Shown: positions 23,994 to 27,231 of the stretch, in pieces | Layout of the letters: each line of letters opens with the position of its first letter | Numbering within the stretch: position 1 is the first letter of the stretch | Assembly (NCBI RefSeq): GCF_014205055.1 | Contig: NZ_JACHMS010000001.1 | Coordinates: 6,572,001 to 6,636,000 of the forward strand | Source: Streptomyces luteogriseus | Lineage (GTDB): Bacteria > Actinomycetota > Actinomycetes > Streptomycetales > Streptomycetaceae | DNA: 64,000 bases | Reading direction: 5' to 3' | Notes under the pieces: model-generated | What the model was told of the DNA's origin: nothing | What the model saw: the letters and a program-made list of their open reading frames with translations, nothing else | The model's database searches: none | Translations under genes and position numbers: made by a program

Positions 23994-26009
23994 ATGACGG
24001 CCGAGCTGGTGCGGGGGCAGAATCACCCGCTCTCCCAGGCCCGCCTCGAGATCCGGATCTCGGCCGGTACACCGATCGTGGCCGTGGCCGCGCTCGGCGA
24101 CGAGAACGGCCGGATCCACGGCGTGGAGTGGGTGGCCCACCCGGGCGCACCCACCCAGCCGGGTCTCGAGGTCTCCCGGCAGGCCGCCGCCGACCATCGC
24201 CTCGCGGTGGACCTGGACGCCGTGCCGGAGGCCGTCCACCGTGTCAGCGTGCTGCTGGCCCTGCCCGTCGGCGGGACGGGCCCGGTCCGATTCGGCGCCG
24301 TGGCGGCCCCCTTCGTCGCCGTCACCGGCCTCGACGGCGACGAGGTCGCCAGCTACACCATCACCGGCCTGGAGGCCGAGTCGGCCGTCGTCGCCCTGGA
24401 GCTCTACCGCCGACAGGACGCCTGGAAGGTGCGCGCCGTCGGTCAGGGCTACGCGGGCGGCCTCGCCGAACTCCTCACCGACCAGGGCCTGCCGCAGGCC
24501 CACCAGCTCGCCGGCACCATCGACGACGCGGTGGCCCAGGGACTCTCCCGCTCGGTGCAGGCGCCCCCGCCGCGCACGGCGGACGGCGACCGCTCCCGGC
24601 AGACGGCGGCTCCCGCCCTCGGCCCGGACCAGGGCGGCACCGCGCCCCAGCCCGGTCCCGTACCACCGGTGTCCCCGTACGGAGGTCAGACGCCCGGCGG
24701 TCCCGGACAGCCCGCGCCGCAGCAGCCGTATCCAGGCGCCGCGCCGGATTCCAACGCCGCCACCCAGCCGTCCGCCCCCACGGCGGGCGGTTCGATCGAC
24801 TACAGCCACCCGCGCCGTCAGAACGCCGCCCCGCCCCCGCCTCCGCCCACCGCGCCCCCGGCCGCACCCGGGCAGCCCGCCCAGCCCGTCGCGGGCGACG
24901 CGACCGGCTGGTCGATGGAGGAGCGGCTCTACAACCAGGTGTGGGGCATGTTCGAGGACCTGGCCCGCACCACCGCGGCCTACCGCAGCGCCGTCGACTT
25001 CGCCGAGTCGCGGATGGACAAGGAGCTGGAGCAGGTCCTCTCCGACCCGCGCAGCCGGATCGGCGGACAGGGCGACGCCGCCCGCGAAGCGGCCCGGGCC
25101 CGGCACACCCAGCTCGTCGCCCAGGCGCGAGAGGCACTCGACCGGGACCTCACCCAGCTCGCGGCCGAGGCCGATGTCGTCGAACCGGCCCTGCCGCCGG
25201 CATACGCCCGCTGGGACAACCCGGCGTGGCACGCCTACCGGGTGCCGATGGAGATCCCCATGGCCCTGCGCCTGGGCGACCTCCATCTCCCCGAGGCCGA
25301 TCGGATCCGCATCCCGATGCTGGTCCGGCTGCCGCTGGAGCGCGGCCTGTGGATCGACAGCGGAGCGGCGGGATCATCCGACGGGTCGTTCACCGACTCT
25401 CCCACCATGAGCCGTCTCGCCATGGAGACGGCGGTCGCGCACGCGGCCCGGCTGCTGGCCGTCTACCCGGCGGGGGAGTTCACCGTCCACGTCATCGACC
25501 CGGCCGGCTCCGGGGCCCAGCCCTTGGCGCCCCTCGTGCAGACCGGGGTGCTCGCGGCCCCGCCGGCACTCGGCGCCGCGGGGGTGGCGGACGTGCTGGG
25601 CCGGCTCACCCAGCGGGTCGACCTGGTGCAGATGGCCATCCGGGGCGGCGCCGCCGACTCCCTCCCGCCCGGCTTCGACACCTCCCAGCAGCTCCTGATC
25701 GTCAACGACTTCCCGCACGGTTTCGACGACCGGGCCGTGAACCAGCTGCGCTACCTGGCCGACGAGGGCCCCGCCTTCGGCGTCCACCTGATGATGGTGG
25801 CCGACCGGGAGGAGTCCTCCGGCTACGGGCCGCTGCTCGACCCGCTGTGGCGTTCGCTGCTGCGACTGACCCCGGTGGCCGACGACCACCTCGCCGACCC
25901 GTGGGTCGGTCATGCCTGGACGTACGAGCCGTCGCTCGTGCCGCCCGGCAGCCAGGTCCTCCAGCAGGTGCTCGCCCAAGTCGCTGCCGCCCGCACCACG
26001 TTCATGTAA
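23994..26009 (+). CDS. TerD-domain protein with C-terminal FtsK-like ATPase-fold region
   Basis: 671 residues from an ATG after GGGGGACGAAGGCG. Residues 1 to about 175 are TerD-like (LSQARLEIRISAGTPIVAVAALGDENG, YTITGLEAESAVVALELYRR). About 185-300 is a Pro/Gln/Ala-rich disordered linker with a run of prolines. From about 305 comes a coiled region (MEERLYNQVWGMFEDLARTTAAY), then an alpha/beta domain with FTVHVIDPAG, LLIVNDFPHGFDDRAVNQLRYLADEGPAFGVHLMMVAD. The latter resembles the FtsK/SpoIIIE motor core as found in Ter-system proteins. I see no Walker A in this polypeptide, so it may be a non-hydrolysing scaffold. Confidence 0.85.
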   Translation: MTAELVRGQNHPLSQARLEIRISAGTPIVAVAALGDENGRIHGVEWVAHPGAPTQPGLEVSRQAAADHRLAVDLDAVPEAVHRVSVLLALPVGGTGPVRFGAVAAPFVAVTGLDGDEVASYTITGLEAESAVVALELYRRQDAWKVRAVGQGYAGGLAELLTDQGLPQAHQLAGTIDDAVAQGLSRSVQAPPPRTADGDRSRQTAAPALGPDQGGTAPQPGPVPPVSPYGGQTPGGPGQPAPQQPYPGAAPDSNAATQPSAPTAGGSIDYSHPRRQNAAPPPPPPTAPPAAPGQPAQPVAGDATGWSMEERLYNQVWGMFEDLARTTAAYRSAVDFAESRMDKELEQVLSDPRSRIGGQGDAAREAARARHTQLVAQAREALDRDLTQLAAEADVVEPALPPAYARWDNPAWHAYRVPMEIPMALRLGDLHLPEADRIRIPMLVRLPLERGLWIDSGAAGSSDGSFTDSPTMSRLAMETAVAHAARLLAVYPAGEFTVHVIDPAGSGAQPLAPLVQTGVLAAPPALGAAGVADVLGRLTQRVDLVQMAIRGGAADSLPPGFDTSQQLLIVNDFPHGFDDRAVNQLRYLADEGPAFGVHLMMVADREESSGYGPLLDPLWRSLLRLTPVADDHLADPWVGHAWTYEPSLVPPGSQVLQQVLAQVAAARTTFM

Positions 26010-26084
26010 AGCTCCTGACCAGGGGTTTTGGTCTTTCTTTTGCCAAGCGCTTTACCTGTTCTTGGTAATTGGGTACTGTTGACG

Positions 26085-26186
26085 GCACGGAGGGGAGTAC
26101 TCCCTGTCTGCTGCGGCGTACCCGTCAATACGGATCAGGCCAGATCCCGGGGCGTCGGCCCATCTTGGGTGGAAGAGACCTCCGGC
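26085..26186 (+). ncRNA. Probable yybP-ykoY (Mn2+) riboswitch upstream of TerC gene
   Basis: The 5' conserved motif GGGGAGTA is at 26092-26099. The conserved CCGTCAATACGG element is at 26122-26133. The 3' GAGACC element is at 26175-26180, with GGAGG (26089-26093) able to pair with CCTCC (26179-26183) to close the P1 helix. These are the hallmark sequences of the manganese-sensing yybP-ykoY class, which typically precedes TerC/MntP-type transporter genes. The order and spacing fit, but I could not fold it computationally. Confidence 0.75.
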
Positions 26187-26229
26187 AGCGACGACGCTGA
26201 CATTTGCCGTTACGACTGCCGGAGGCGCA

Positions 26230-27231
26230 GTGGATGTTTCCGTGACCCTATGGGTCCTGACGATCGTGGGCCTCGCCGCCCTTATCGCGGTCGACTTCTT
26301 CATCGGCCGCAAGCCGCACGACGTGTCGATCAAGGAAGCCGGGATCTGGACGGTCGTCTGGATCGTGCTGGCCGCGCTCTTCGGGCTCGGTCTGCTCCTG
26401 TTCGCCGGTGGCCAGCCCGCCGGTGAGTTCTTCGCGGGCTTCATCACCGAGAAGTCACTCAGCGTCGACAACCTCTTCGTCTTCGTCCTGATCATGGCGA
26501 AGTTCGCGGTGCCGTCGCAGTACCAGCAGCGTGTGCTGCTGATCGGTGTCCTCATCGCCCTGGTCCTGCGAGCGATCTTCATCGCCGCCGGCGCGGCGAT
26601 CCTCGCCAGCTTCGCCTGGGTCTTCTACATCTTCGGCGCCTTCCTCATCTACACCGCCTGGAAGCTCATCCAGGAGGCTCGGGCCGACGAGGAAGACGAG
26701 GAGTTCGAGGAGAACAAGCTGCTCAAGGCCGCCGAGCGCCGCTTCGGCGTGGCGGACCGGTACCACGGCACGAAGCTGTGGATCGAGGAGAACGGCAAGC
26801 GGGTCATGACCCCGATGCTGGTCGTGATGCTGGCCATCGGCACCACCGATGTGCTCTTTGCCCTCGACTCCATCCCCGCGATCTTCGGCCTGACGCAGGA
26901 CCCGTACATCGTCTTCACGGCCAACGCATTCGCCCTGATGGGTCTGCGCCAGCTGTACTTCCTCATCGGCGGCCTGCTGAAGAAGCTGGTCCACCTCTCC
27001 TACGGCCTGTCGATCATCCTGGGCTTCATCGGCGTGAAGCTGGTGCTGCACGCGCTGCACGAGTCCGGGGTACATGTCCCCGAGATCAGCATTCCGGTCT
27101 CGCTCGGCGTGATCTGCTCCGTGCTGATCGTCACCACGATCACCAGCCTGCGGGCTTCCAAGAAGCAGGCGGCGGCCGAGGCGGCGCAGGACAAGAGCGG
27201 AGGCGCTCCGAAGGACAGCGTCGACGTCTGA
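26230..27231 (+). CDS. TerC-family membrane protein (probable metal exporter)
   Basis: 333 residues from GTG 26230, directly after GGAGGCGCA. TerC signatures include AVDFFIG, FFAGFITEKSLSVDNLFVF (about 66-84), VLLIGVLIALVLRAIFIAAG, and the acidic DxxFALDSIPAIF motif (DVLFALDSIPAIFGLT). There are eight or so transmembrane helices and an acidic cytoplasmic loop (RADEEDEEFEENK). Bacterial relatives with the yybP-ykoY leader (MeeF/MeeY type) supply or export Mn2+. The riboswitch here argues for Mn2+ rather than tellurite as the physiological substrate. A strong terminator follows. Confidence 0.92.
   Translation: MDVSVTLWVLTIVGLAALIAVDFFIGRKPHDVSIKEAGIWTVVWIVLAALFGLGLLLFAGGQPAGEFFAGFITEKSLSVDNLFVFVLIMAKFAVPSQYQQRVLLIGVLIALVLRAIFIAAGAAILASFAWVFYIFGAFLIYTAWKLIQEARADEEDEEFEENKLLKAAERRFGVADRYHGTKLWIEENGKRVMTPMLVVMLAIGTTDVLFALDSIPAIFGLTQDPYIVFTANAFALMGLRQLYFLIGGLLKKLVHLSYGLSIILGFIGVKLVLHALHESGVHVPEISIPVSLGVICSVLIVTTITSLRASKKQAAAEAAQDKSGGAPKDSVDV

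Follow-up and report, generated by a model that had tools for sequence, protein, structure and literature searches.

The window, the whole 64,000-nucleotide stretch of Streptomyces luteogriseus DNA analyzed here, contains a gene for an Alx-like TerC membrane protein (Table 1), separated by a 220-base gap from a TerD-domain gene (23994–26009). The TerD-domain gene lies immediately upstream of the terC leader, and a gene of the Na/Ca-exchanger family (PF01699; 27737–28837) lies downstream of terC. Nearby are genes that, recognized by eye, we take to be uvrA, uvrC and gap-pgk-tpi. Over 311 aa, the TerC protein shares 36.7% identity with E. coli Alx; its likeness to YoaE is weak.

A terminator-like hairpin comes after the TerD-domain gene, consistent with separate transcription of terC. 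A probable promoter emerged from comparison of related leaders (see below): when the 53 leaders with an aptamer are reduced to a consensus, CTTTACC and GTACtnT are prominent, with a few leaders shifted by some bases. A scan with an E. coli-type sigma-70 consensus gave no promoter at this site. The –10 element fits the Streptomyces consensus TAnnnT, as given in the accessible parts of two papers (PMC8079986, PMC8780764). We infer that the transcript starts at about 26085–26087, the 5' edge of the aptamer.

Table 1. Features of the terC leader, in window coordinates. R1, A2 and the sets of leaders are defined in the text.
Feature	Position	Strand	Remarks
Terminator-like hairpin	26007–26033	+	3' of TerD-domain gene; terminator scan, 2 overlapping matches versus 0.4 expected
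Probable promoter	26051–26079	+	–35 TTTACC 26051–26056, 17-nt spacer, –10 TACTGT 26074–26079
yybP-ykoY-type aptamer	26088–26184	+	R1 101.6 bits, E 6e-21 (this aptamer is itself part of the R1 training set); kept in 53/58 leaders
P1.1 5' strand CGGAGG	26088–26093	+	Pairs with CCTCCG 26179–26184; invariant in Streptomyces
L1 5' strand GGAGUA	26094–26099	+	Invariant in 50 distinct Streptomyces rows; same strand in E. coli alx
P1.2 5' strand	26100–26103	+	Pairs with 26171–26174; two-sided change in 4/4 pairs (A2)
P3 5' strand	26114–26124	+	Pairs with 26148–26157; 10 pairs, 8 with two-sided change (A2)
L3 bulge UCAAUAC	26125–26131	+	7 nt; UCA invariant in 50 distinct Streptomyces rows
P3.1 hairpin	26132–26147	+	26132–26136 with 26143–26147; 4/5 pairs with two-sided change (A2)
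P4 hairpin	26158–26170	+	5/5 pairs with two-sided change (A2)
L1 3' strand GAGA	26175–26178	+	Invariant in 50 distinct Streptomyces rows; GAGACCT also in E. coli alx
Switching strand CCTCCGGCAG	26179–26188	+	Bases 1–6 form the P1.1 3' strand; whole is the anti-Shine–Dalgarno
CTGCCGGAGG	26216–26225	+	Holds Shine–Dalgarno GGAGG 26221–26225, 4 nt 5' of GTG
terC	26230–27231	+	333 aa, Alx-like TerC membrane protein; PF03741 E 5e-53

An earlier note on this DNA had proposed a yybP-ykoY-type Mn2+ riboswitch here, from three motifs in order and a closing GGAGG/CCTCC pair. The three motifs do occur in that order on the + strand. The string GGGGAGTA...CCGTCA...GAGACC was found once in the window and in none of 100 window shuffles, in keeping with the note's view that chance was an unlikely cause. 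The closing pair is real, in that the two strands of P1.1 face each other across the element. An aptamer does lie at the proposed site, but its bounds are 26088–26184 rather than 26085–26186, and the distance from aptamer to GTG, put at 47 bases, is 45 (26185–26229).

Within P1 sits the L1 motif, GGGGAGUA opposite GAGACC; it is present in 53 of 58 Streptomyces leaders and invariant in their 50 distinct rows. The first pair of P1.2 is non-standard, C with A here, and it is also non-standard in 37 of the 50 Streptomyces rows. A 10-nt linker (26104–26113) follows instead of P2, and there is no four-way junction; both are features of RF00080, the Rfam yybP-ykoY model, and of the solved structures, and we treat them as optional. 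The absence of P2 was dropped as a novelty because the E. coli alx leader seems to lack P2 too and the three-way form is already in print. As for CCGTCAATACGG, a reading as a closed hairpin was replaced by P3 plus the L3 bulge in the supported fold: CCG (26122–26124) pairs with CGG (26148–26150) in P3, UCAAUAC forms L3, and the final GG opens the next helix. Shuffled versions of the 166-nt leader rarely fold as well (2 of 200; z –2.74 for the leader).

A 7-nt L3 with an invariant A is a class feature, according to the accessible text of a structural paper (PMC6754395). There, L3 reads UCA41AUUC in L. lactis and ACA48UACU in X. oryzae, the numbered adenosine coordinates Mn2+ through its N7, and an A-minor contact from L1 lies above that adenosine. 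By sequence, A26127 corresponds to A41 and A48, which contact Mn2+. Both L1 and the 7-nt L3 bulge with this adenosine agree with the solved structures.

To see how widely the leader is kept, we compared Streptomyces genomes. A similar leader is found in 58 of 61, the window's genome included; these leaders were placed by the conserved TerC start, and the position of that start (GTG, 26230 in the window) is kept across all 58. Fifty-three carry the three motifs in order, and all 53 fit one architecture: P1.1 CGGAGG/CCTCCG, L1 GGAGUA/GAGA, P1.2, a short linker, P3, a UCANNNC bulge, P3.1 and P4. Such retention, too, bears out the earlier judgement that the motifs are beyond chance. The other five leaders (L052, L057, L060, L061 and L062) lack the core, and no leader was matched in three of the 61 genomes, which makes the element dispensable. 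In L057, CCTCCGG and CCGGAGG are kept, and GGAGTA, GTCA and the GAGACC strand are lost together. With its P1-like stem and the arms of the Shine–Dalgarno hairpin retained, the L057 leader may be constitutively ON.

Covariation was assessed in two alignments. The first, A1, is an unfitted Streptomyces alignment of 50 of the 53 aptamers, the other three being identical to one of these. It has 34 cells with a two-sided pair change, versus 14.3 in shuffles (0 of 500 shuffles as high), while the count of further pair types was not beyond chance (47 of 500). P1.1 is invariant in Streptomyces, so Streptomyces alone neither supports nor opposes it. The second alignment, A2, comprises 32 sequences: 24 from outside Streptomyces, seven from Streptomyces and E. 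coli alx. Because A2 was fitted to the structure of the model, it is biased towards that structure; in this alignment, two-sided change is seen in 24 of 30 pairs, with 182 such cells versus 55.0 in shuffles (0 of 500). Likewise, 96.4% of cells are paired versus 76.7% when shuffled, and the covariation score is 0.598 versus 0.218, with slid partners at 0.131 or below. P1, P3 and P4 around the junction are thereby supported by covariation in A2, and P1.1 itself shows two-sided change at three of its six pairs. From Streptomyces sequences alone, RNAalifold predicts pairing between GGA and UCC inside the 5' strand. These pairs never vary, so an alternative apo hairpin is neither supported nor excluded.

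As a check, the earlier note had named a covariance search with the Rfam model, and here the outcome was a score below threshold, one half of what the note would have taken as a refutation. RF00080 matches nothing in the window at its gathering score and nothing at E ≤ 10 over 500 bases around the site, and a whole-genome scan returned nothing near the terC leader. The leader does not reach the 45-bit cut-off, which is a detection criterion and not a defining feature. In control searches, the E. coli alx leader was missed at E ≤ 10, and E. coli mntP scored 41.6 bits against the cut-off of 45. Because the same model misses alx and leaves mntP below the cut-off, its miss of the terC leader says little, and we set RF00080 aside as an arbiter. 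In a further control with 14 genomes, nine had a match at E ≤ 10, E. coli and C. glutamicum among them, and two exceeded the cut-off; E. coli may hold a better, over-cut-off match elsewhere than in the sequences scanned. Of 296 genomes of the class Actinomycetes, none reached the cut-off and 11 had a match at E ≤ 0.01. The structure line of RF00080 leaves the GGGGAGUA strand unpaired, and its printed consensus is without the GAGACC strand. Thus P1, the switching helix, seems to be absent from the model. That RF00080 misses actinobacterial members at large scale implies that annotation based on it under-reports Mn2+ regulation in these organisms.

We therefore relied on R1, a covariance model made from the 50 distinct Streptomyces aptamers only. 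R1 finds the E. coli alx leader at 39.8 bits, with an E value of 1.5e-7 in 15 kb and 1.3e-6 in 129 kb. It matches at least 66 of 114 genera and at least 173 of 296 class genomes, the latter a lower bound because scoring was confined to the 12 best first-look candidates of each genome. Nine of the 11 class loci with an RF00080 match at E ≤ 0.01 were also matched by R1 (all except L072 and L074). The searches used no gene context, and a TerC gene follows 22 of the 24 non-Streptomyces matches examined. Twenty of these loci were taken one per family from the matches listed, before their genes were known, and 19 of them have TerC downstream, as do three of four further loci (L102–L105). In the exceptions, the R1 match precedes a gene for a PGPGW-domain membrane protein, not TerC (L239, 101–196), or no TerC was found after it (L104). 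With a wider covariance model, R2, matches were obtained in 36 of 149 genomes sampled from the phylum. R2 had aimed to join mntP, and neither model finds E. coli mntP; nor does either have a match at E ≤ 10 in the five coreless leaders. Overall, the finding of alx by R1, the TerC genes after 22 of 24 matches, the covariation in A2 and the shared architecture support the family assignment made in the earlier note. The terC leader is a conserved and genuine member of the yybP-ykoY (Mn2+) riboswitch class, and very probably senses Mn2+.

The 8.7 Mb genome that holds the window gives a single R1 match at E ≤ 0.01, the terC leader. It also holds a second, divergent yybP-ykoY-like element (L227:1253–1355; contig ~6113587–6113689), which R2 scores at 43.8 bits and R1 at 27.2 bits, too weak for that threshold. 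This second element precedes a GDT1 (MneA-type) gene at contig 6113835–6114356. A TerC paralogue (L001, contig 721606–722226) is 82% identical to the window's TerC; alongside it and another paralogue, L003, neither R1 nor R2 has a match at E ≤ 10. Elsewhere in actinobacteria, sub-threshold RF00080 matches precede GDT1-family genes at seven loci (L066–L071 and L073). These genes were assigned by Pfam (L067, L068), by blastp (L069, L070, L073) or by sequence likeness (L066, L071). At another locus, a class element (L065:1487–1588) lies before a gene of the Na/Ca-exchanger family (PF01699).

How might the aptamer act on terC? The strand that closes P1 also has a partner at the ribosome binding site: CCUCCGGCAG (26179–26188) is perfectly complementary to CUGCCGGAGG (26216–26225), and the two are paired in the predicted fold. 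The fit of arm to leader was analyzed in 26 leaders (one from Streptomyces, 24 others and alx), the target being the 64 nt that begin 6 nt past the aptamer, with individual Shine–Dalgarnos not located. The P1 3' arm pairs with its own downstream stretch at –14.4 kcal/mol on average, versus –11.1 when arms are permuted between leaders (sd 0.48; 0 of 5000), although this permutation figure is not a strict probability because the leaders share ancestry. For the 6-nt P1 strand alone, the values are –7.89 and –6.62 (again 0 of 5000). Examples of arm and partner are CCTCGAACAT with GTGTTCGAGG (L241), CCTTCGGCAG with CTGCCGAAGG (L240) and CCTTGTG with CACAAGG (L239). The pairing is weak or does without the P1 strand in L103, L104, L243, L245 and L247. 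The own-leader fit supports the earlier proposal of translational control as opposed to a terminator switch.

Predicted ensembles of the 53 leaders give a similar picture. In the free ensemble, the Shine–Dalgarno is predicted to be shut in all 53 (probability of being unpaired 0.01 on average, at most 0.07). With P1 forced, it is more open in 52 of the 53 (unpaired 0.29 on average and 0.36 in the window's leader). In an energy model that excludes tertiary contacts, the predicted OFF (free) ensemble is favored over the P1 ensemble by ~15 kcal/mol here (mean 9.0, range 1.2–18.4). Metal binding could not by itself overcome such a preference at equilibrium, and the mechanism has to assume a kinetic switch. 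On the model's energies, the switch would be decided during RNA synthesis.

Sequence and comparison show the conserved aptamer, its helices, the L1/L3 core and the complementarity between the P1 3' strand and the Shine–Dalgarno. By analogy with the class, the leader would bind Mn2+ and be turned ON by it. In the mechanism we propose, transcription would begin at the 5' edge of the aptamer. With ample Mn2+, the ion would join L1 to L3 on the emerging RNA and lock CCUCCG into P1; the Shine–Dalgarno would then be free and TerC made. When Mn2+ is scarce, CCUCCGGCAG would pair with CUGCCGGAGG and hide the Shine–Dalgarno. TerC, once made, might export Mn2+ or load it onto exported proteins. We consider it highly likely that the terC leader is a yybP-ykoY Mn2+ riboswitch controlling translation of the Alx-like TerC gene.

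An aptamer of the same class could instead work mainly by early transcription termination, Rho-dependent or at a terminator without a U-tract, with occlusion of the Shine–Dalgarno secondary. The S. coelicolor yybP element at SCO2347 is indeed given as 'active ribo-switching (attenuation)' in the accessible text of one paper (PMC4681348). In the window's leader, however, no U-tract follows the hairpin and the terminator scan found no terminator-like site after the aptamer, which rules out a U-tract terminator. Moreover, the competing hairpin ends in the Shine–Dalgarno, 4 nt 5' of the start codon, and the fit of arm to leader is lineage-specific, so we regard termination as an unlikely main mode. 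It is also improbable, in our view, that the RNA, its fold retained, responds in Streptomyces mainly to a different cation (Ca2+) or to pH. Such a signal would suit the neighbors, a TerD-domain gene just upstream and the Na/Ca-exchanger-family gene downstream of terC, and several reports can be read in its favor: a title cited in PMC5069765 links the TerD gene SCO2368 to calcium homeostasis, a Streptococcus mgtA element is reported in the available text of PMC9495176 as Ca2+-binding, and a yybP element is termed pH responsive in that of PMC4681348. Yet the adenosine and the bulge behind Mn2+ selectivity are conserved, the gene downstream is Alx-like, and the second element of the genome precedes a GDT1/MneA-type gene.

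A conserved leader might also resemble a riboswitch by convergence and serve a different purpose, for instance in mRNA stability or protein binding. The silence of RF00080 on the terC leader would be expected in that case, but R1, trained on Streptomyces alone, finds E. coli alx as well as the leaders of TerC genes across many actinobacterial families, and the core formed by L1 and L3 agrees with the solved structures. These observations make convergence highly improbable.

The riboswitch class itself is well known; what is new is its scope: of 296 class genomes, RF00080 exceeds its cut-off in none and R1 matches at least 173. In the accessible portion of the open-licence literature, we found no description of the terC leader as a Mn2+ riboswitch, and older Rfam listings may well include it. 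A broader interpretation, on which we are evenly divided, is that the leader belongs to a P2-less, three-way-junction subclass of Mn2+ riboswitches (terC/alx type). In this interpretation, the subclass would be the principal Mn2+ switch of many Actinomycetes, largely invisible to RF00080, with a conserved kinetic exchange between P1 and the anti-Shine–Dalgarno pairing. In Streptomyces, it would govern a two-gene Mn2+ defence made up of terC and a GDT1/MneA-type exporter. For this genus, the terC leader would represent a Mn2+-responsive control point. It would also link Mn2+ to a gene from the TerC ('tellurite resistance') family, and it offers a GC-rich ON switch.

Comparable elements have been described in other actinobacteria. 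In C. glutamicum, the terC gene cg2157 has a yybP-ykoY leader, scored at 49 bits by RF00080 in the paper's Rfam data, and a transcription start was observed there, according to the text available (PMC3890552). This too is an actinobacterial terC leader; with the present RF00080 model, C. glutamicum has a match at E ≤ 10 only and none at E ≤ 0.01. An article on ANTAR RNAs mentions briefly that known RNAs, yybP-ykoY included, were found by RNA-seq in Corynebacterium and Streptomyces (PMC8164766). The accessible parts of an S. lividans paper report 22 Rfam cis-elements and do not mention manganese, yybP or terC (PMC8079986), and those of an S. avermitilis paper mention none of the three (PMC8780764). 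The SCO2347 element of S. coelicolor (PMC4681348) is of the same class and from the same genus as the terC leader. SCO2347 is listed, in the portion available, with SCO2348, a secreted protein (PMC5069765). At the GDT1 locus of the window's genome there is a divergent protein with, by eye, a signal-like start, which fits a secreted SCO2348. We rejected SCO2347 as the window's terC from its neighbors, SCO2348 versus the presumed uvrA, uvrC and gap-pgk-tpi, and SCO2347 is more likely to be the GDT1 gene.

Known systems outside the phylum are similarly instructive. In V. parahaemolyticus, mneA and terC both lie behind yybP-ykoY elements and are both Mn-induced, and losing either gene raises cell Mn, as stated in the accessible text (PMC13274385). 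Given the second, GDT1/MneA-type element, this suggests a like pair in the window's genome. The terC leader precedes a gene of a family of Mn2+ homeostasis, and this TerC would probably share that role: handling of Mn2+ by the window's TerC fits both its similarity to Alx and the Vibrio TerC work (PMC13274385). The E. coli mntP leader has in common with the terC leader GGGGAGUA, GUCA with a 7-nt bulge, and GAGACC, but unlike the terC leader it has P2 (as aligned by RF00080 at 41.6 bits) and is found by neither R1 nor R2. The E. coli alx leader is Mn2+ responsive. Like the terC leader, it has an Alx-like TerC gene downstream, the same L1 strands, an L3 starting with UCA and, in the R1 alignment, the order P1/P3/P4 with a short linker in the place of P2. 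It differs in its lower G+C, its longer P4 side and the sequence of P1. Moreover, the complement of the P1 arm comes directly after the aptamer in alx, whereas in the terC leader it lies at the start codon.
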